64,000 nucleotides of DNA from Streptomyces sp. NBC_01707 (GTDB lineage Bacteria; Actinomycetota; Actinomycetes; Streptomycetales; Streptomycetaceae), in assembly GCF_041438805.1 (NCBI RefSeq), contig NZ_CP109190.1, positions 1,984,001 to 2,048,000 of the forward strand, read 5' to 3'. The position numbers were made by a program, and so were the translations under genes. Within the stretch, counting starts at the first letter, position 1. The number at the start of each line of letters is the position of its first letter. Positions 6,575 through 64,000 of the stretch are shown one piece after another. The notes beneath the pieces are model-generated. The model was not told the DNA's origin, did not search any database, and saw only the letters and a list, made by a program, of their open reading frames with translations.

Positions 6575-6697
6575 GAACGGTGCGCCGCCCTCGTGACGCG
6601 GACCGCGTATCCACGCCCCGGAGGAACCCACCGAGTCGTCTGCCACGCAGACCTCGGTACAGGTGTTCGCAGGGACCGGGTTAGTCTGACCGTCGTA

Positions 6698-6777
6698 CCG
6701 GACACGGGGTGCCCTACCCGAGGGCTGAGATCACACCCGTCGAACCTGAACCAGTTCGCACTGGCGGAGGGATGTCT
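6698..6777 (+). promoter_or_regulatory. TPP (thi-box) riboswitch
   Basis: The conserved thi-box elements occur in order: GGGGTGC at 6707-6713, GGCTGAGA at 6723-6730, ACCC then GAACCTGA at 6741-6748, and CAG...CTGGCGGAGGG ending at 6771. Thiamine pyrophosphate binding normally represses. Here GGAGGG also serves as the ribosome binding site of the following ATG at 6781, so control is probably at translation initiation. A TAGTCT hexamer at 6682-6687 could be the -10 box, but no good -35 is visible. It controls cytX-thiM-thiE. Confidence 0.93.
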
Positions 6778-6780
6778 TTC

Positions 6781-8187
6781 ATGCCTTTGACGCATGTTTC
6801 CGGCGGGCTGCCCGCCGACGGCCGGCAGACCGTCTTCGACGGACGGATGCCGGTGGCGGCCGGCGACCTCCGGGTCGAGACGCACGGCATCGAGCCGGTC
6901 CCCGAGAGCAATCGCTACGGCGGTCCCGGGCGCCTGTTCAGCGTGTGGTTCGCTCCCAATCTGACCATGACCGGTGTATTCACCGGCACCGTCGGCATCG
7001 CCCTCGGCCTGGACTTCGCCACCGCGCTCGCCGCCGTCGTGCTGGGCACGGTGCTCGGCGCGGTGCCCACCGCCTACCTGGGGACCTGGGGGAGCCAGAC
7101 CGGTGCCGGACAGCTGCCGCTGGCCCGGCTCGCCTTCGGCCGGGCCGTGACGGTGCCCGGCATCCTGCAGTGGCTGTCCTCGGTCGCCTGGGACGCGCTG
7201 ATCGGGCTGTTCGGCGGGGACGCGCTCGCGCGGCTCTGCGGCTGGCCGTTCTGGCTCGGCGTGCTGGCCATGATGTTGGCCCAGGGCGCCCTCGGCGTGC
7301 TGGGCTACGAGGCCATCCACCGGCTCCAGATCGTCATGACCTTCGTACTCGCCGGCGCGTTCGCCCTGATCGCCTGGCGGCTGCTCGACGGTGTCCATCC
7401 GGTCGGAGCCGGCACCGCCCACGGCGCCGACCGGGCCGGCGCGTTCGTCCTGACCAGCACCATCGCGCTGAGTCTGGCCCTGTCCTGGGCCCCGTACGCC
7501 AGCGACTTCAGCCGCTATCTGCCACGCACCACCTCGCGCCCGCGCATGTTCTGGTTCACGCTGCTCGGCCTGGTGGTGTCCTTCGTGGCCGTCCAGGCCC
7601 TCGGGTTGCTGGGCGCGTCCGTACTGACCGACCAGACCGCCGCAGGGGTGGACAAGCTGCTGGGCGGTGGGGTGCTGGGCGCGTTCGGACTGCTCGCCGT
7701 GGCGCTGGCCGCCCTCTGCAGCAACGCCATGAACGACTACAGCGGTTCCTTGGCCCTGCAGACCGTCGGCGTGCGCATTCCCCGCCCGGCGGCCGCCGCC
7801 CTCGCCGCCGCGCTCGGCTTCCCTCTGGTGCTGTGGATGCACGCTGCCGACACCACTGCCCGCTTCCAGAACGTGCTGCTGTTCGTCGGCTACTGGATCC
7901 CCGGATTCGTGGCGATCGTCATCGTCGACTGGATCGCACGGGCCCGGACACGGGACGGTGCGGCGATCGATCTCGCCGCCGAGACCGCTCGGCCGAACTC
8001 CGGGTGGCCCCCGTTGCTGGCGTTCGCCGTCGCCTTCGCCGCGGCGGTGCCGTTCATGGACACCAGTCTGTACGTGGGACCGGTGGCCGCCGCCCTGCAC
8101 AGCGCCGACCTCTCGTACTACGTGGCGTTCCTCGTGGCTCTCACCGTCTACGCGCCGCTGCGGCTACGCCGTCGCCCGCAGGACTGA
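6781..8187 (+). CDS. cytX: CytX-type NCS1 permease, probable thiamine-precursor (hydroxymethylpyrimidine) transporter
   Basis: A 468-residue NCS1 (cytosine/purine/thiamine permease) protein with about twelve membrane segments. Typical features are RYGGPGRLFSVWFAPNLTMTG at the first helix, SVAWDALIGLFGGDA, and SLALSWAPYASDFSRYLPRTT in the middle. NCS1 permeases placed under thi-boxes and next to thiM/thiE are called CytX and are predicted HMP importers. The ATG at 6781 lies nine bases after the riboswitch GGAGGG. An in-frame ATG at 6772 is too close to it. Import of HMP would feed salvage together with ThiM and ThiE. Confidence 0.87.
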   Translation: MPLTHVSGGLPADGRQTVFDGRMPVAAGDLRVETHGIEPVPESNRYGGPGRLFSVWFAPNLTMTGVFTGTVGIALGLDFATALAAVVLGTVLGAVPTAYLGTWGSQTGAGQLPLARLAFGRAVTVPGILQWLSSVAWDALIGLFGGDALARLCGWPFWLGVLAMMLAQGALGVLGYEAIHRLQIVMTFVLAGAFALIAWRLLDGVHPVGAGTAHGADRAGAFVLTSTIALSLALSWAPYASDFSRYLPRTTSRPRMFWFTLLGLVVSFVAVQALGLLGASVLTDQTAAGVDKLLGGGVLGAFGLLAVALAALCSNAMNDYSGSLALQTVGVRIPRPAAAALAAALGFPLVLWMHAADTTARFQNVLLFVGYWIPGFVAIVIVDWIARARTRDGAAIDLAAETARPNSGWPPLLAFAVAFAAAVPFMDTSLYVGPVAAALHSADLSYYVAFLVALTVYAPLRLRRRPQD

Positions 8188-57183: not shown

Positions 57184-58185
57184 TCAGGTCTGACGCAGGG
57201 GTGCGTACGCTTCCCGCTGAAGTCCGAACGTCCAGGCCACACCCTCCTTCGCGGTCCTGGTCGTCGGCGGCACCCGCAGCCAGTACGTGCGATGCGTGCC
57301 GTCCGGCTCCGGGGTGGAATTGACCACCTCGACCATCACCACGTCCTCGTCGCCCTGCAGCGCGATCCGCCACAGGATGCCCGTCTCGTCCCGGTGCACC
57401 GGCTCGGCGCCCGACTCGGTGAGGTAGCGGTCGTAGCCGTAGAACTCCAGCATCACGCGGCGCAGTTCCGCGTTCTCCTCGTTGCGTATCCGCTCGGGGG
57501 TCAGGGCCGCCAGCTCCGCCAGGAACTCGGCGGGGACCGGCATGCCGCGCCAGGCGTACAGCGCGAATCCGTCAGGGTACGAGAGGGCTGGGCCGTCCCC
57601 GCGGTCGAGCCGGCCCGCCTCGTCGCGGTGGAGTGCCTCCGGGCGTTCGCTGAGCACCACCGTGCGCTCGTAGGGCCACCACCAGCCGGCGTGCCGGGCC
57701 ACCTCCGCCAGTCCGTCGAGCCGGTCACCACGGCCGTCGAACGCGGCCAGCCACGCCGCGTCGTGCTGGCCGAGCACCGCGTCGAGCAGCACCAGCCGGA
57801 CCGCCGTCTCGTCCTCGGGCCGCTGGGCGAGGGCCGTGACGACACCCGCCCGTATCCGCTCGGCGAGCGCCGCCGTGGTCTCCCAGAGCTGGGCGCCCGT
57901 GGCCGACCAGAGGGCGGACCAGCCGGCCGGTCCCAGCTCGTCGTACATCCGGCGCCGCTCCTGCGCCCACGGGCGGGTGCGCACCTCGTCGCGGACCGAG
58001 CGCCCCGCGTCGACGAGCTTCTCGACGGCCTCGACGGCCGCCTTCGGCGAGTCCGCCCAGACGAACTCCTCCGGCTCCGCCAGTCCCGCGCTGCGGTAGG
58101 CGAGCCGGACGCCGTCCTCGGCCGCGGCCCGGTCCGCCGCGCCGGTCGCCGCTGCCACGCCCCGCCATGAGTCCACATACTGCAT
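57184..58185 (-). CDS. DUF6745 domain-containing protein
   Basis: 333 residues, start MQYVDSWRG at 58185. Helical N-terminal half (FVWADSPKAAVEAVEKLVDAG, ELGPAGWSALWSATGAQLW) and a C-terminal region with PALSYPDGFALYAWRGMPVPAEFL, EFYGYDRYLTESGAEPVHRDETGILWR and EDVVMVEVVNSTPEPDGTHRTYWLRVPP, the hallmark block of DUF6745 (family name from memory). No enzymatic motif. It is 93 bases downstream of the small gene on the same strand and divergent to the STM4015-type genes; in other genomes the two groups are recalled as neighbours. Confidence 0.82.
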   Translation of the reverse strand: MQYVDSWRGVAAATGAADRAAAEDGVRLAYRSAGLAEPEEFVWADSPKAAVEAVEKLVDAGRSVRDEVRTRPWAQERRRMYDELGPAGWSALWSATGAQLWETTAALAERIRAGVVTALAQRPEDETAVRLVLLDAVLGQHDAAWLAAFDGRGDRLDGLAEVARHAGWWWPYERTVVLSERPEALHRDEAGRLDRGDGPALSYPDGFALYAWRGMPVPAEFLAELAALTPERIRNEENAELRRVMLEFYGYDRYLTESGAEPVHRDETGILWRIALQGDEDVVMVEVVNSTPEPDGTHRTYWLRVPPTTRTAKEGVAWTFGLQREAYAPLRQT

Positions 58186-58278
58186 CGGTTGTCCCCGTCC
58201 CCTGTATCGCTGTCCGGTCCTGAATCCCTGCTGTGCCACGTCCTGTCCGGTGCCTCCTGGCCGCTCCGGACGGGCCGG

Positions 58279-58605
58279 TCAGTCCGCGACGATGCGGACC
58301 GCGCCGGGTGCGTACTCCCGCTGGCGCACCACGCGGTACCAGCCCTTCGACAGCGGGATCGCCGCATGCTCCTCGTGCACCACGCGTCCGCCGTCGGGGA
58401 GATGGAGGAGCATCGGGCCGAACGCGCCCGCCTCGCGCATCAGCCGGCCGGGCCCCTGTACCGCATGCGCATGACCGGTGACCTCGCCGAGCGCCAGCAC
58501 CAGTCGCCCCCGGGCGTCCCGCGGCTCCCCCGGCGCGTCCACCAGATGCGCGGGCACCGCCGACTCCTCCAACGACACGATCAGTACATCGCCCTGCCGG
58601 TACAC
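58279..58605 (-). CDS. small protein upstream of the DUF6745 gene
   Basis: 108 residues, start GTG 58605 with GGAGGGGA seven bases upstream. It reads VYRQGDVLIVSLEESAVP, then LALGEVTGHAHAVQGPG, HEEHAAIPLSKGWYRVVRQREY and ends in VRIVAD. Beta-rich with HAHAV and HEEH pairs that might bind metal. It is embedded in a longer antisense open frame opposite the STM4015 genes, but the RBS and composition define the real gene. Such proteins accompany DUF6745; their role is unknown. Confidence 0.78.
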   Translation of the reverse strand: MYRQGDVLIVSLEESAVPAHLVDAPGEPRDARGRLVLALGEVTGHAHAVQGPGRLMREAGAFGPMLLHLPDGGRVVHEEHAAIPLSKGWYRVVRQREYAPGAVRIVAD

Positions 58606-58770
58606 AGACGTCTCCCCTCCACGGCGGCACCCGCTGTGCCGCGGCCGTGGAGAAAACGCTACGAGGAGGGTCTGACAATCGGTCACAACCGGTCCCGCCC
58701 GCCGCGTTGTCAGTGCGGCTTGATAAACCTTGCGGGCATCAGCCGATCCCAGTCTCAGGAGTTCAGGGCC

Positions 58771-59727
58771 ATGTCCGGTGTGGATCACCTGCACGAGTTG
58801 CTCGGCCTTCCGGCCGTCGACTTCCAGCACGCGACGGGCGAGGCCCCGGCGCAGGCCGCGGACGCCGCGGCCTGGCGTATCTCGGTCGACCCGTACGACG
58901 ACGAGTCCGAGATGACCTGGGAGGAGGCGTTCCAGGCGTTCCTCGGGGCGGTCGACCCGGGCGGCGTGCGAGCCCTGATCATCGGGCAGTGGGGGGAGGC
59001 GACCGACGAGACGTCGTCCTACCCGATCGGTCTGGTGATCGCCGCGGCCGACCGGCTGACTTCGCTGGAGGCGATATTCGTCGGCGACATGACGCGCGAG
59101 GAGAACGAGATCTCCTGGATCGAGCAGTGCGAGGTCACCGCGCTGCTGACCGCGTTCCCCGCCCTGCTCGAACTGGGCGTGCGCGGCGGCACGTATCTGA
59201 CGTTCTCCCCGTCGAAGCACGATCGGCTGCGTTCGCTGACCATCGAGACCGGCGGGCTTCCGGTCGAGGTGATCCGCGGCATTCTTGACAGCGAGCTGCC
59301 CGCACTGGAGCGGCTGGATCTCTGGCTGGGCGTCTCCGAGTACGGCGGCGACGCGGATGTCGCGGACCTGGCCCCGCTGCTCTCCGGCTCGCGGTTCCCC
59401 CGGCTCCACCACCTCGGTCTGCGCAACAGCGAGTTGCAGAACGAAATCGCGCGCGCCGTCGCGAGCGCCCCGGTCGTCGCCCAGCTCCGCACCCTCGACC
59501 TGTCGAACGGCACACTGGGCGACGAGGGCGCGGCCGCGCTGCTCGAGGGCCAGCCGCTGACCCATCTCGAACGGCTCGATCTGCACCATCACTTCCTCAC
59601 CGAGCCGGTGGAGCGTCGAATCAAGGCGGCGTTGGAGCCGCACGGCGTGCAGGTCGATCTCTCCGAGCGCGAGGAGCCGTGGGGCGGCCGCGGGATCGAA
59701 GGCCGCTACACCACGGTTGCGGAGTGA
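58771..59727 (+). CDS. STM4015 family leucine-rich repeat protein, copy 1
   Basis: 318 residues, cytoplasmic. ATG 58771 with CAGGAG upstream. Leucine-rich-like repeats from about 165 onward: LERLDLWLGVSEYGGDADVADLAPLL, HHLGLRNSELQNEIARAV, LRTLDLSNGTLGDEGAAALLEG and HLERLDLHHHFL. N-terminal half EEAFQAFLGAVDPGGVRALIIGQWGEA is common to STM4015-family proteins. LRRs usually bind proteins or peptides. First gene of the STM4015-4014-4013-4012 cluster. Confidence 0.88.
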   Translation: MSGVDHLHELLGLPAVDFQHATGEAPAQAADAAAWRISVDPYDDESEMTWEEAFQAFLGAVDPGGVRALIIGQWGEATDETSSYPIGLVIAAADRLTSLEAIFVGDMTREENEISWIEQCEVTALLTAFPALLELGVRGGTYLTFSPSKHDRLRSLTIETGGLPVEVIRGILDSELPALERLDLWLGVSEYGGDADVADLAPLLSGSRFPRLHHLGLRNSELQNEIARAVASAPVVAQLRTLDLSNGTLGDEGAAALLEGQPLTHLERLDLHHHFLTEPVERRIKAALEPHGVQVDLSEREEPWGGRGIEGRYTTVAE

Positions 59728-59733
59728 TGTGCG

Positions 59734-60705
59734 ATGACGGACATCGAACACCCCGATTCCTTCCACGGGTTGCCGGTTCTCACGTTGCCAGGCCCCGACC
59801 GGCCGCGCGCTGATCCCCTCCCGGCGGCGGATGCCGTCGCCTGGCGGCTGGAGAGCGCCTGGCAGAGCGATCTGACGTTCGCGGCACTCTGGCAGTACTT
59901 CCTCGACACGGTGGACACGACCGCGGTACGGGCTCTGGTGATCGGCCCCTGGTGGGAGGAGGAGTACACCCCCTTCGCACCGGTCGTCGAGCTGCTGTGC
60001 GCCGATGCGGACCGCTTCCCGGCCCTGCGAGCGCTCTTCCTCGCCGATGTCGTCAGCGAGGAATGCGAGCTCTCGTGGCTGGAGATGTCCGACATCACCC
60101 CGGTGGTCGAGGCGTTCGGGCAGCTGGAGGAGTTGACCGTACGCGGGTGCGGTGAGCCGGTCGAGGGCACGGAGGTCCTCGGCCTGCAGCCGGTGCGGCA
60201 CAAGGCGCTCAGGTCGCTCCGGTTCGAGTCGGGCGGGCTCCCGGCCGGCGTCGTGCGGGCGATCGGTGCTTCGGATCTGCCCGCGCTGGAGCATCTCGAA
60301 CTCTGGCTGGGCGTCACCGAGTACGGCGGCGACTCGACGGTCGACGACCTCGCCCCGCTGCTCTCCGGTGCCGCGTTCCCGAAGCTGCGCCACCTGGGCC
60401 TGCAGAACAGTGAGATCCAGGACGAGATCGCGGCCGCGGTGGCATCGGCCCCGGTCGTCGCCCACCTGGAATCGCTCTCCCTCGCGATGGGGACCCTGAG
60501 CGACATCGGCGCCGAGGCGCTGCTCGCGGGCCAGCCCCTCACTCATCTGACCTCGCTGGATCTGCACCATCACTACATCAGCGACCCGCTGGTCGACCGG
60601 CTCAGGGGGCTGATCGGACCCGACCGGGTGAACGGCGAACCGCACGAGGTGGAGTACTGGGATCCGGATGAGGACGACGAGCGCTATGTCGCGGTCTCCG
60701 AGTAG
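59734..60705 (+). CDS. STM4015 family leucine-rich repeat protein, copy 2
   Basis: 323 residues, six bases after copy 1. Parallel motifs: ALVIGPWWEEEYTPFAPVV, ELSWLEMSDITPVVEAFGQLEEL, LEHLELWLGVTEYGGDSTVDDLAPLL, HLGLQNSEIQDEIAAAVASAPVVAHL and SLDLHHHYISDPLVDRL. The two copies share the strongest identity at 180-300 and differ at the N-terminus, indicating duplication followed by specialisation. Its end overlaps the next start by 20 bases. Confidence 0.88.
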   Translation: MTDIEHPDSFHGLPVLTLPGPDRPRADPLPAADAVAWRLESAWQSDLTFAALWQYFLDTVDTTAVRALVIGPWWEEEYTPFAPVVELLCADADRFPALRALFLADVVSEECELSWLEMSDITPVVEAFGQLEELTVRGCGEPVEGTEVLGLQPVRHKALRSLRFESGGLPAGVVRAIGASDLPALEHLELWLGVTEYGGDSTVDDLAPLLSGAAFPKLRHLGLQNSEIQDEIAAAVASAPVVAHLESLSLAMGTLSDIGAEALLAGQPLTHLTSLDLHHHYISDPLVDRLRGLIGPDRVNGEPHEVEYWDPDEDDERYVAVSE

Positions 60706-61840
60706 CACGGTAGGTCCGGTGCCACGCTTTGCCGTCGTCGGCGTGCCCGGCAACCGTCGGGTGACGCTGTTCCAGGAGGCGGTACGTGCCGCCGGGCTGC
60801 CGGCCCCACGGGTCGTGCCCTGGCCGGACGTGCTGCGCGGCGAGGTGGCGTTCCGGCCGGGCGAGACCGTACGGATGGACTCGCCCGGTGAGGACGCCGA
60901 GGTGGATCGGCTGCTGCGGGCCGTCGACGATCCGACGAGGGTGGAGGGAACGGCCCGCTGGTACGCCCGCTTCACCGCGGCCGTAAGGGAGGTGGCGCGG
61001 GCGGCAGCTGCCGCCGGCGCGGAGTTGCTGGACGATCCGGGCGATGTGGCGGTGTTGTTCGACAAGCGGCTCTGCCATGGCGTACTGGACGGCGCCGCAG
61101 TCCCCGTGCCTGCATCCGCGACCTCCGGGGCCGGCGCGCCTGTGGTGCGCGGCTGGGCTGACGTGCGCGCGCTGATGGCGGGGCACCGTATGCCGCGGGC
61201 CTTCGTGAAGCTCGCGCACGGCTCGTCCGCCTCGGGCGTACTCGCCGTGGAGACGGCCGGACCGGGCCGCGTGCGGGCGACGACGTCGGTGGAGCGTGAC
61301 TCCGCCGGGCGGCTCTTCAACTCGCTGCGGGTGCGCCGCTGTACGACGGAACGCGAGGTGGCGGCGATCGTCGACGCGCTCGCACCGGACGGGCTGCACA
61401 TCGAGCGCTGGCTGCCCAAGGCATCGCAGCATGGGCGATCGGCCGATCTGCGGGTCGTGGTCGTGGCCGGTCGCGCGACCCATGCCGTCGTACGGACCAG
61501 CCGCTCCCCCATGACCAATCTTCACCTCGGCGGGGAGCGCGGAGATCTCGACGAGGTCCGCGTGGCCGTCCGGGCGGCGGGCGGCAGCTGGGCCGAGGTC
61601 CTCGCCGTGTGCGAGAGGGCCGCCGCCTGCTTCCCGGAGACGCTGTGCGTGGCCGTCGATCTGCTGCCCGCGACGGGCTGGCGGCGGTTCGCCGTCGGCG
61701 AGGTCAACGCGTTCGGCGATCTGCTGCCACGCCTGACCGGCCTGCCGGGCAGTGGCGCCGAGGGCCTGGACACCTATGCGGCGCAGGTCGCCGCCGTACT
61801 GAACAGAGCAAGGAACCACCGTGCAACCACCAGCGCCTGA
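60686..61840 (+). CDS. STM4014 family ATP-grasp-like protein
   Basis: About 384 residues. ATG 60686 (MSRSPSS) lies within the preceding gene; a GTG at 60719 would begin VPRFAVVGVPGN directly. The ATP-grasp-like region includes VLFDKRLCHGVLDGAAVPVPA, MPRAFVKLAHGSSASGVLAVE (lysine and glycine-rich nucleotide loop) and ETLCVAVDLLPATGWRRFAVGEVNAFGD (acid/Asn metal site). ATP-grasp enzymes join carboxylates to amines or thiols. Named after the Salmonella STM4014 gene family; biochemical role unknown. Overlaps the STM4013 gene by 20 bases. Confidence 0.85.
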   Translation: MSRSPSSTVGPVPRFAVVGVPGNRRVTLFQEAVRAAGLPAPRVVPWPDVLRGEVAFRPGETVRMDSPGEDAEVDRLLRAVDDPTRVEGTARWYARFTAAVREVARAAAAAGAELLDDPGDVAVLFDKRLCHGVLDGAAVPVPASATSGAGAPVVRGWADVRALMAGHRMPRAFVKLAHGSSASGVLAVETAGPGRVRATTSVERDSAGRLFNSLRVRRCTTEREVAAIVDALAPDGLHIERWLPKASQHGRSADLRVVVVAGRATHAVVRTSRSPMTNLHLGGERGDLDEVRVAVRAAGGSWAEVLAVCERAAACFPETLCVAVDLLPATGWRRFAVGEVNAFGDLLPRLTGLPGSGAEGLDTYAAQVAAVLNRARNHRATTSA

Positions 61841-62693
61841 TACCGGCCGGTCCCCCACCGACGCCCGGAACCCGGACATGAGCGGGATCGTGGGCAGCCA
61901 CGACCTGTTGCTGATCACGCTCGACACCCTGCGGTACGACGTGGCGGCGGAGCTCGCCGCCGCCGGCCGCATCCCGCATCTGGCCCGCCATCTGCCGGGC
62001 GGGGTCTGGGAGAAGCGGCATGCTCCCGGCAGCTTCACATACGCCTCCCACCAGGCGATCTTCGCGGGCTTCCTGCCGACGCCCGCCGCGCCCGGCCCGC
62101 ATCCGCGGCTGTTCGCGGCGCGCTTCGCGGGCAGTGAGACCACGGCTTCCCGTACTTTTGTCTTCGACACCCCCGATCTGGTGTCCGCTCTCGCCGGGGC
62201 CGGCTACCGCACGGTGTGCATCGGTGGCGTCGGATTCTTCAACCGGCAGGGCCCGCTCGGTTCGGTTCTGCCGGACATGTTCCAGGAGAGCCACTGGGAA
62301 CCGGAGTTCGGGGTTGCGTCACCCACTTCCTTCGAGGCCCAGGTGACCCGGGCCGAGCAGGTCGTCGCCCGGCTTCCGGCCGAACAGCGGCTGTTCCTCT
62401 TCGTCAACGTGGCTGCGCTGCACCAGCCCAACTGGTTCCACCGGCCGGGCGCCACCCCGGAGGCGGGTGACTCCCGCGCCACGCATGCCGCCGCCCTGGA
62501 GTACGTCGACGCGCACATCGGCCGGCTCTTCGCCGCCGCGAGCAGCCGCCGCCGTTGCTTCGCCATCGTCTGCTCCGACCACGGCACGGCGTACGGGGAC
62601 GACGGCTACACCGGTCACCGGCTCGGCCACGAGTCCGTATGGACCGTTCCGTACGCGCACTTCTTCCTCGAACCGGGGGCCACCGCATGCTGA
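61821..62693 (+). CDS. STM4013 family alkaline phosphatase/sulfatase-fold hydrolase
   Basis: 290 residues. GTG 61821 with AAGGA upstream. Core motifs: LLLITLDTLRYD (first metal Asp), GSFTYASHQAIFAGFLPTP (nucleophile Ser/Thr region), FLFVNVAALHQPNWF, and CFAIVCSDHGTAYGDDGYTGHRLGH (DHG metal site and trailing His). It matches the STM4013/SEN3800 hydrolase group of the alkaline phosphatase superfamily. Likely phosphate- or sulfate-ester or phosphonate chemistry. Cotranscribed with STM4014 and STM4012. Confidence 0.88.
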   Translation: MQPPAPDTGRSPTDARNPDMSGIVGSHDLLLITLDTLRYDVAAELAAAGRIPHLARHLPGGVWEKRHAPGSFTYASHQAIFAGFLPTPAAPGPHPRLFAARFAGSETTASRTFVFDTPDLVSALAGAGYRTVCIGGVGFFNRQGPLGSVLPDMFQESHWEPEFGVASPTSFEAQVTRAEQVVARLPAEQRLFLFVNVAALHQPNWFHRPGATPEAGDSRATHAAALEYVDAHIGRLFAAASSRRRCFAIVCSDHGTAYGDDGYTGHRLGHESVWTVPYAHFFLEPGATAC

Positions 62694-64000
62694 CGAGTCA
62701 GCCCACCATCCGCCCGTATCAGAGCTATGTCTACGCCTATCCGCACAAGACTGCGTACGGGAAACTCGACTCACACCCCACCGGGCGGCCCGTGCTGCGC
62801 GAGCTGTGGGCGGCCGAGCGCAAGGACGCGCTGTCGCTCTATCTCCACATACCGTTCTGCGAGGTCCGCTGCGGCTTCTGCAACCTCTTCACCCGGATCG
62901 GCGCTCCCGATGAGCTGACGACCCGCTACCTCGACGCGCTGGAGAGACAGGCCACCGCCGTCCGGGACGCGCTGGGGGACGAGGCGCCGGTACGGTTCGC
63001 CGCCGCGGCGTTCGGCGGCGGCACCCCCACCTTTCTGACCGCCGCCGAACTGGACCGGCTCTGCGACATCGCGGAGCAGCGGATGGGTGCCGACCTGCGC
63101 TCCGTACCGCTGTCGGTCGAGACGTCGCCGTCGACCGCGACGGCCGACCGGCTGGCCGTCCTCGCCGACCGCGGGACGACCAGGATCAGCATCGGCGTAC
63201 AGAGCTTCATCGACGCCGAAGCCCGCGCGGCGGTCCGTCCGCAGCGCCGGGCCGATGTGGAAGCCGCCCTCGGCCGGATCCGTGACGTGCGCATCCCGGT
63301 CCTGAACATCGACCTGATCTACGGCATCGACGGGCAGACGGAGGACAGTTGGCGCACCTCGCTGGACGCCGCGCTCGGCTGGCAGCCGGAGGAGCTCTAC
63401 CTCTATCCGCTGTACGTGCGCCCGCTGACCGGGCTGGGCCGGTACGGCGCCGACGTCGAGGCCGCGGCGGACGCCGCGTGGGACGAGCAGCGGCTGCGGC
63501 TGTACCGGGCGGGCCGGGACCATCTTCTCGCCCACGGCTACGAGCAGGTGTCGATGCGGATGTTCCGCCGCACCGACGCCCCGCAGGAGGGCCCCGCCGA
63601 CTACGCGTGCCAGACGGACGGCATGATCGGTCTGGGCTGTGGCGCCCGTTCGTACACCACACGGCTGCATTACTCGTTCGACTACGCGGTGGAGATGCGT
63701 GAGGTGCGGACGATCATCGACGACTACACCGCCACCGAGGACTTCTCCCGCGCCGAAGTGGGTCGCCACGTCGACGGCGACGAGGCGCGCAGACGCCATC
63801 TCCTGCAGTCGCTGCTCCAGGCCCAGGGGCTGCGACCGGGCGAGTACCACGAACGGTTCGGCACCTTGCCCGGCGACGACTTCCGCGCCGAGCTGGACCG
63901 GTTCGAGGCGCGCGGCTGGCTGGACGGCGCCGCCGGTGCGACCGGGCTGCTGCGGCTGTCGCCCGAAGGCCTCGCGCATTCCGACGCGCTGGGTCCCGAG
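62687..64000 (+). CDS. STM4012 family HemN-like radical SAM protein (3' end outside window)
   Basis: 438 codons are present without stop, so the gene is truncated by the window edge. ATG 62687 overlaps the STM4013 stop by seven bases. Radical SAM cluster motif C58-xxx-C62-xx-C65 (FCEVRCGFCN), then FGGGTPTFLTAAEL, LSVETSP, RISIGVQSF, NIDLIYGIDGQTEDSW. HemN/coproporphyrinogen III oxidase-like (HemW) pattern. RPLTGLGRYG and QVSMRMFRR continue, and the C-terminal winged helix is RRRHLLQSLL. In this family cluster the enzyme is paired with the STM4011 radical SAM protein, expected just beyond the window. Confidence 0.92.
   Translation, partial: MLTSQPTIRPYQSYVYAYPHKTAYGKLDSHPTGRPVLRELWAAERKDALSLYLHIPFCEVRCGFCNLFTRIGAPDELTTRYLDALERQATAVRDALGDEAPVRFAAAAFGGGTPTFLTAAELDRLCDIAEQRMGADLRSVPLSVETSPSTATADRLAVLADRGTTRISIGVQSFIDAEARAAVRPQRRADVEAALGRIRDVRIPVLNIDLIYGIDGQTEDSWRTSLDAALGWQPEELYLYPLYVRPLTGLGRYGADVEAAADAAWDEQRLRLYRAGRDHLLAHGYEQVSMRMFRRTDAPQEGPADYACQTDGMIGLGCGARSYTTRLHYSFDYAVEMREVRTIIDDYTATEDFSRAEVGRHVDGDEARRRHLLQSLLQAQGLRPGEYHERFGTLPGDDFRAELDRFEARGWLDGAAGATGLLRLSPEGLAHSDALGPE

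Follow-up and report, generated by a model that had tools for sequence, protein, structure and literature searches.

A conserved glutamate-ended tail on STM4015 proteins as the probable site of action of the STM4011-4015 operon in Streptomyces

The STM4011-4015 operon of Streptomyces sp. NBC_01707 combines a predicted ligase, a hydrolase and two radical S-adenosylmethionine (SAM) enzymes with leucine-rich repeat proteins, and it raises a simple question: what do these enzymes act on? It lies at the end of the window analysed here, a 64-kb stretch of contig NZ_CP109190.1 (9.58 Mb of a 9.9-Mb genome; 1,984,001-2,048,000; nucleotide positions are coordinates within this window unless stated otherwise). 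Its genes follow the order STM4015a, STM4015b, STM4014, STM4013, STM4012, STM4011, all on the plus strand and tightly packed. The families are named, without function, in the libraries used, and we found no description of STM4011-4015 as a system in the openly licensed literature; earlier notice elsewhere is possible. PMC3844500 and PMC2784778 name a single locus in a table. An earlier note on this DNA described a coherent, uncharacterised toolset of ligase, hydrolase and radical SAM enzyme with no substrate gene visible. The toolset is supported by the analysis below. As for the substrate, the evidence points to the C-terminal motif of STM4015 as a modified or recognised site, and this end of the protein is probably the "missing substrate."

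The two STM4015 copies of the window, copy a (58771-59727, 318 residues) and copy b (59734-60705, 323 residues), are 48% identical and end in RYTTVAE (59704-59724) and RYVAVSE (60682-60702), respectively, the last residue of each being a near-invariant Glu. Across 14 STM4015 proteins from 10 clusters, every aligned protein ends at the same position with Glu. The same holds for 160 of 161 distinct operon-linked tails, a mostly Streptomyces set that leaves out 17 loci for being duplicate, short or decayed, 11 loci with paralogues only, and any copy below 280 bits; before filtering, 165/166 operon tails end in E, including that of the decayed cluster L142, where the E is there by chance. Position -6 is Y, F or W in 159/161 tails and position -7 is R in 157/161, giving a pattern that is mostly R-Y-x-x-V-x-E, and positions -8 to -30 are variable (entropy 1.6-3.2 bits, 161 tails). 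The stretch before the tail is acidic, with a mean of 7.1 D+E per 18 residues (~40%; 149 copies) compared with 15% elsewhere in the protein. The ends of STM4014, STM4013 and STM4011 are variable, and the conserved end of STM4012 is part of a conserved end domain.

Conservation of the last residue extends well beyond Streptomyces. The final Glu of operon copies is kept across five phyla and belongs to the 18 columns that do not vary among 56 aligned sequences chosen from them. Ends outside Actinomycetota include WRYVALGE and WRFVALGE in Deinococcus, WRYPSLTE in Paenibacillus, YRSIAVSE in Methylobacterium, YMNAMYTE in Salmonella and WYYPMITE in Bacteroides. A search of 61 genomes for the tail pattern returned 36 matches, five of which end in TGG and not in stops; 29 of the 31 stop-terminated matches lie in STM4015, and the other two fall in frames of 71 and 67 residues that are doubtful and look non-coding. 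The reversed control pattern gave three matches. We also considered that the Glu might be an artefact of a ribosome-binding site, and rejected this on the mix of final codons (GAG 130, GAA 32), the seven-residue length of the motif and its persistence in paralogues outside the operon.

These paralogues, defined as unbroken Streptomyces STM4015 copies lying outside the operon, provide the second line of evidence. The tail is kept by 24/30 paralogues in operon-bearing genomes and by 0/5 in operon-less genomes (Fisher p 0.0014). Three of the 24 lie within ~10 kb of an operon, and without them the count is 21/27 (p 0.0023). The count omits two tail-keeping copies from fragmented assemblies (L151 and L175) and one from a decaying cluster (L174, tail RSVAISE), together with broken copies in G309, G529 and G557. 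All 24 tail-bearing paralogues thus occur in genomes with the operon, which is present in 190/392 genomes, and the operon-less paralogues without a tail still keep most of the repeat domain. Within Streptomyces, tail-bearing paralogues are linked to the operon; shared ancestry weakens the statistics, yet the pattern fits a tail of use only alongside the enzymes and argues against a role that is structural alone. One operon-less genome, G287, retains a short STM4011-like piece containing a stop, and loss of the operon may explain why its copy has no tail. In the paralogue tree, tail-less copies fall in three places, namely a clade of eight, a clade of two and the single G263 copy, which adjoins a tail-bearing clade of nine.

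Tail-less paralogues end in other conserved motifs, [IS]xVGP[LV][ST]Y for one group and FVADGRDF for a second (L132, L133, L135, L155, L159, L163 and L172; also L141 and L173). To judge from these motifs, it is as if the proteins had been re-tasked to a different partner.

The enzyme connected with a C-terminal Glu through its relatives is STM4014 (60719-61840, NF038074 462.3 bits), whose start codon is most likely the GTG at 60719 in a frame open from 60668. The window protein matches no Pfam family at E 0.01. NCBIfam rimK_fam reaches 43/45 members of the STM4014 family and LysX_arch 34/45 (E <=0.1), and the best solved relatives of the family profile are LysX structures (E 9.3e-5, whole chain), with an alignment that runs through the DLRVVV...R...TNLHLGG block. 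The predicted structure (predicted local distance difference test score, pLDDT, 88.9) matches DcsG first, then LysX and ArgX solved with LysW, the graspetide ligase PsnB, and RimK, at template modelling (TM) scores of 0.5-0.56 by query length. By profile and fold, STM4014 is a RimK/LysX-type ATP-grasp ligase of predicted activity, and the earlier label "ATP-grasp-like" was right despite the missing Pfam match. Its score against the LysX model itself is 14.5 bits, so far below the cut-off of 275.6 that it is to be regarded as a relative of LysX and not as a LysX. In Embleya sp. NBC_00888 (L211), no stop separates STM4014 from STM4013 and a single open frame covers both, probably a natural fusion of ligase and hydrolase.

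STM4013 (61878-62693, NF038075 425.1 bits) belongs to the alkaline phosphatase superfamily, and its best-scoring solved relatives are nucleotide pyrophosphatase/phosphodiesterases (NPPs), followed by sulfatases. The nucleophile is probably Thr54, and the nucleophile position reads F-T-[YW] in 9/9 aligned sequences. Sulfatases carry the formylglycine motif C/S-x-P-x-R, which is absent from all nine aligned STM4013 sequences (9/9). The idea that STM4013 is a sulfatase matured by STM4011, in the manner of an anaerobic sulfatase-maturating enzyme (anSME), was rejected for want of this motif.

The two radical SAM enzymes close the operon. STM4012 (454 residues, NF006067 635.9 bits), classed by NCBIfam as HemN/HutW-like, begins at 62687 and extends 51 bases beyond the window, its end falling at window-equivalent 64051. 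STM4011, for which the earlier note had pointed past position 64000, was found there at window-equivalent 64048-64977 on the plus strand (NF038073 407.4 bits). Eight Cys are invariant in 9/9 STM4011 sequences (CX3CX2C plus five further), and the best solved relative of the profile is SkfB (E 5.2e-4), then, weakly, anSME (E 0.07). Pfam SPASM matches are weak, with 5/9 members at E <=0.1 and a best value of 0.0018. Taken together, these profile matches weakly suggest that STM4011 is nearest to peptide-modifying radical SAM enzymes. A gene for a Cof-type haloacid dehalogenase (HAD) hydrolase follows STM4011 in Salmonella, and STM4011 of Bacteroides finegoldii (L114) is extended at its C-terminus by a hydrolase part whose DxDGT motif leads us to take it as HAD-like.

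We propose that the operon encodes a protein-tethered modification system, in which the C-terminal Glu of STM4015 is loaded and radical chemistry then proceeds on the tethered unit. We give this reading a probability of about 0.5. Loading at the C-terminus is favoured because the parts of the operon match it: a LysX-like ligase, an acidic stretch followed by a C-terminal Glu, two radical SAM enzymes and a phosphoesterase. STM4015 proteins would be the carriers or substrates, with the repeat domain as a docking platform and the Glu-ended last residues as the site worked on. STM4014 would activate the C-terminal Glu carboxylate and join it to an amine, either an amino acid or a small metabolite. 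STM4011 (SPASM-like) and STM4012 (HemN-like) would then alter the group joined to the tail or an aromatic residue within it, and STM4013, with its NPP-like phosphodiesterase/phosphatase fold, would remove a phospho or nucleotidyl group or free the product, a role that a HAD phosphatase may share in some bacteria. The DUF6745 protein and its small partner, described below, may be accessories used by many hosts and not by all. The genes, their co-occurrence, the tail and the Streptomyces link between tail-bearing paralogues and the operon are shown by the sequences, whereas covalent modification of the tail, the first-acting enzyme and the nature of the product are matters of inference.

More tentatively, the operon could represent a new carrier-protein biosynthesis, in which a leucine-rich carrier loaded by a LysX-like enzyme presents its cargo to a radical SAM pair and a phosphoesterase that build a cofactor or metabolite, and in which one enzyme set also serves several diverged carriers, some of them encoded at a distance from the operon. 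If modification at the tail is confirmed, C-terminal carrier chemistry would reach leucine-rich proteins, and one operon would be seen to serve paralogous carriers in trans. A probable modification site also turns a problem of uncharacterised enzymes and an uncharacterised substrate into a question about a known peptide.

Comparison with described systems helps to place the operon. In the LysW system the carrier ends in EDWGE, and LysX attaches its substrate, by the amino group, to the side-chain carboxyl of this last Glu (PMC10433800). Like the LysW/LysX/ArgX carrier, STM4015 ends in an obligatory Glu (160/161 tails) and is paired with a RimK-type ATP-grasp ligase, LysX being the best-scoring solved relative of the STM4014 profile; the acidic stretch before the tail is counted as a further likeness to amino-group carrier systems. 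However, the LysW pathway employs a kinase, reductase, aminotransferase and hydrolase, whereas the STM operon has radical SAM enzymes and an NPP-like hydrolase. The vazabitide-type amino-group carrier protein (AmCP) of Streptomyces is a further system of this kind, which appears in PMC9303977 as a citation and in a figure legend; carrier-tethered routes of this type are described there, along with the related pearlins. The pearlins 3-thiaglutamate and 3-thiahomoleucine are likewise assembled on the C-terminal end of a ribosomally made carrier, and the route to 3-thiahomoleucine includes a radical SAM step (PMC9303977). Pearlins differ in relying on a PEARL ligase where the STM operon has an ATP-grasp enzyme, and the STM4015 carrier is large and folded; no PEARL ligase was among the NCBIfam or Pfam matches of the operon proteins. 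RimK is of the same ATP-grasp subtype as STM4014 and acts on a protein C-terminus, that of ribosomal protein S6 (PMC8939145), a target that differs from STM4015; RimK is not known to have a radical SAM partner. Finally, STM4011 may resemble the SPASM maturases SkfB and anSME in its CX3CX2C motif and five further invariant Cys, with SkfB as its best-scoring solved relative. Here the difference is that no short precursor peptide is seen at the STM operon and that STM4013 is without the Cys/Ser motif that anSME would mature.

Several observations weigh against the tethered system proposed above. The AlphaFold model of STM4015 is a leucine-rich fold (pLDDT 93) in which the tail is confidently placed (pLDDT 92 and 88 for the last two blocks). 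The tail may therefore lie against the repeats and have a part in folding or binding, and this prediction is the main result that counts against a flexible carrier arm. LysW is a small zinc protein with EDWGE, whereas STM4015 is a large leucine-rich protein with a tail that is mostly R-Y-x-x-V-x-E; likewise, STM4014 has the loop GSSASG in place of the LysX GSWGR. Since the fold of STM4015 and both recognition motifs differ, the operon falls outside the LysW family. The LysX match of STM4014 is the sum of two stretches, each weak alone, the window protein reaches no NCBIfam ligase cut-off except that of its own family, and the ATP-grasps nearest in fold include small-molecule enzymes (DcsG, ranked first; Ddl; PPIP5K). 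The tail itself is not uniform: R-Y is missing in Salmonella and altered in Bacteroides and Methylobacterium, so that Glu alone is common to all, and one operon copy (L058) ends in Ala. The DUF6745 and small proteins also have conserved C-terminal ends, although the whole end domain is conserved there. As for the paralogues, six of the 30 in operon-bearing genomes are without the tail, and the relatedness of the genomes, together with tail-less copies in three lineages, means that the Fisher p of 0.0014 overstates independence. A plasmid of the cyanobacterium Calothrix sp. PCC 7716 encodes an STM4015 (L208:2014-3288) that has a long additional N-terminal region and ends in RYCSVAE, with no operon beside it and neither STM4014 nor STM4011 on that record. 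This copy is a possible exception to the link between tail and operon, the plasmid record alone being covered.

Other explanations of the tail have to be weighed on the same evidence. It might be a docking peptide, with STM4015 as an adaptor that brings in clients through its repeat domain and enzymes that bind the tail while modifying the client or a small molecule. This accounts for the tail, the operon link and its confident placement in the model, as well as for paralogues with diverged repeat domains, of which the 48% identity of copies a and b gives a measure; yet it makes a coincidence of the Glu at the exact end and of a ligase closest to C-terminal-Glu ligases, and we think it somewhat unlikely. 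Alternatively, the tail might simply cap the leucine-rich fold, with the operon making a small cofactor or metabolite without a covalent STM4015 intermediate. The high model confidence at the tail suits such a cap, as does a solved homologue: the structure nearest to the STM4015 model is 2ra8 (TM 0.80, 30% identity), a Bacteroides fragilis protein ending in YPMITE followed by eight further construct residues. However, the operon-less paralogues lack the tail in 5/5 cases with the repeat domain mostly kept, and the tail-bearing paralogues examined sit in operon genomes in 24/24. We regard this explanation as improbable.

More doubtful still is that STM4014 is a RimK-like polyglutamylase or peptide ligase lengthening the STM4015 tail as a form of regulation, with the radical SAM enzymes acting on another substrate. 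The families and folds closest to STM4014 do include RimK and glutamate ligases of the MptN/CofF type, but such a role would assign no task to either radical SAM enzyme or to the phosphoesterase in a five-gene core that is complete in 78/80 loci. A separate precursor peptide, of the kind that lies beside the ligase in RiPP or graspetide clusters, is unlikely for want of space, to judge from the intergenic gaps. Gaps within the operon are at most 37 bases or are replaced by overlaps, the next long open frame lies 58 bases beyond STM4011, and no free stretch is longer than the 165 bases of the divergent region (58606-58770). The earlier suggestion that two leucine-rich copies imply two recognised partners is not supported: the operon carries one to four STM4015 copies, and the leucine-rich proteins themselves appear to bear the modified or recognised site. 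At the upper end of this range, L176 (G346) has four tandem STM4015 copies in one operon, every one with the Glu tail.

The operon genes travel together. STM4014 was found in 190/392 genomes of the Streptomyces sample (E <=1e-30) and STM4015 in 195/392; all 190 STM4014-bearing genomes have STM4015, and only G222, G263, G287, G492 and G547 have STM4015 without STM4014. At E <=1e-30, STM4011 is absent from all five of these and from two STM4014-bearing genomes, the decaying G505 and G528, an assembly of 1510 contigs. Within a 101-genome set, STM4014 (E <=1e-20) and STM4011 (over cut-off) each occur in 43 genomes, and the two sets differ by one in each direction (G262, decayed; G212, STM4011 only). 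Of 80 named loci, 78 have the whole five-gene core and the other two are truncated where a contig ends. In the decayed clusters L142 (G262) and L174 (G505), several core genes are disrupted at once. The system is thus carried by about half of the sampled Streptomyces species (190/392), and STM4014 and its partners recur in several other phyla.

The best 80 of 441 named STM4014 relatives are all Streptomyces except one listed as [Kitasatospora]. Wider searches show that the families co-occur far beyond close relatives, as the earlier note had left to be established: STM4014 and STM4011 match the same 13 of 72,556 plasmid records, from Streptomyces, Embleya, Nonomuraea, Deinococcus, Paenibacillus, Methylobacterium, Salmonella and, in part, Bacteroides, and the order 4015-4014-4013-4012-4011 is kept in 12 of them. 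On the Bacteroides finegoldii plasmid (L114), STM4013 is only a fragment and no STM4012 was found at the locus, a reduced version that may indicate a minimal gene set. Genomes of the same genus are related, and counts among them are not independent events; the cross-phylum records are few and much less related. In the phylum sample, weak STM4014 matches occur in 41/198 at E <=0.001 and five exceed the cut-off, all from the same genus. E. coli gave a match in 94/5426 genomes, none spanning 80% of the query, and the five matches listed cover 3% of it and are annotated as Cof-type HAD hydrolase. STM4011 matched two of 50,697 phage records, both labelled Salmonella.

The genes named in the earlier note are all present. 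Each of the six operon proteins exceeds its curated NCBIfam cut-off (275 bits for STM4015, 175 for STM4014, 250 for STM4013, 380 for STM4012 and 200 for STM4011), STM4015 doing so twice (NF038076; 386.6 bits for copy a and 368.9 for copy b). Divergent from the operon and upstream of it, on the minus strand, lie the gene for the 351-residue DUF6745 protein (57184-58239; Pfam PF20530, E 5.5e-120) and that for a small protein of 108 residues (58279-58605; GTG start at 58605, stop at 58279). The pair tracks the operon, in agreement with the accessory role first suggested for it. Counting DUF6745 in its high-scoring form (E <1e-100), the two genes occur in an identical 35/101 genomes, all 35 within the 43 that bear STM4014, and across the genomes surveyed the 108-residue protein is strictly paired with the DUF6745 gene. 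The pair adjoins the operon in three Deinococcus and in Methylobacterium, and is not beside it in Paenibacillus, Salmonella, Bacteroides or Embleya NBC_00896. The small protein has the conserved motifs G-E-[VL]-T-G-H-x-H and H-[ED]-E-H.

An anti-phage defence function was also considered and set aside, as a PADLOC-DB scan of eight proteins gave one partial match to STM4012 (E 1.6e-6) and none for the other seven. Elsewhere in the window, a thiamine pyrophosphate (TPP) riboswitch lies at 6695-6789 (69.1 bits) and is unrelated to the operon.

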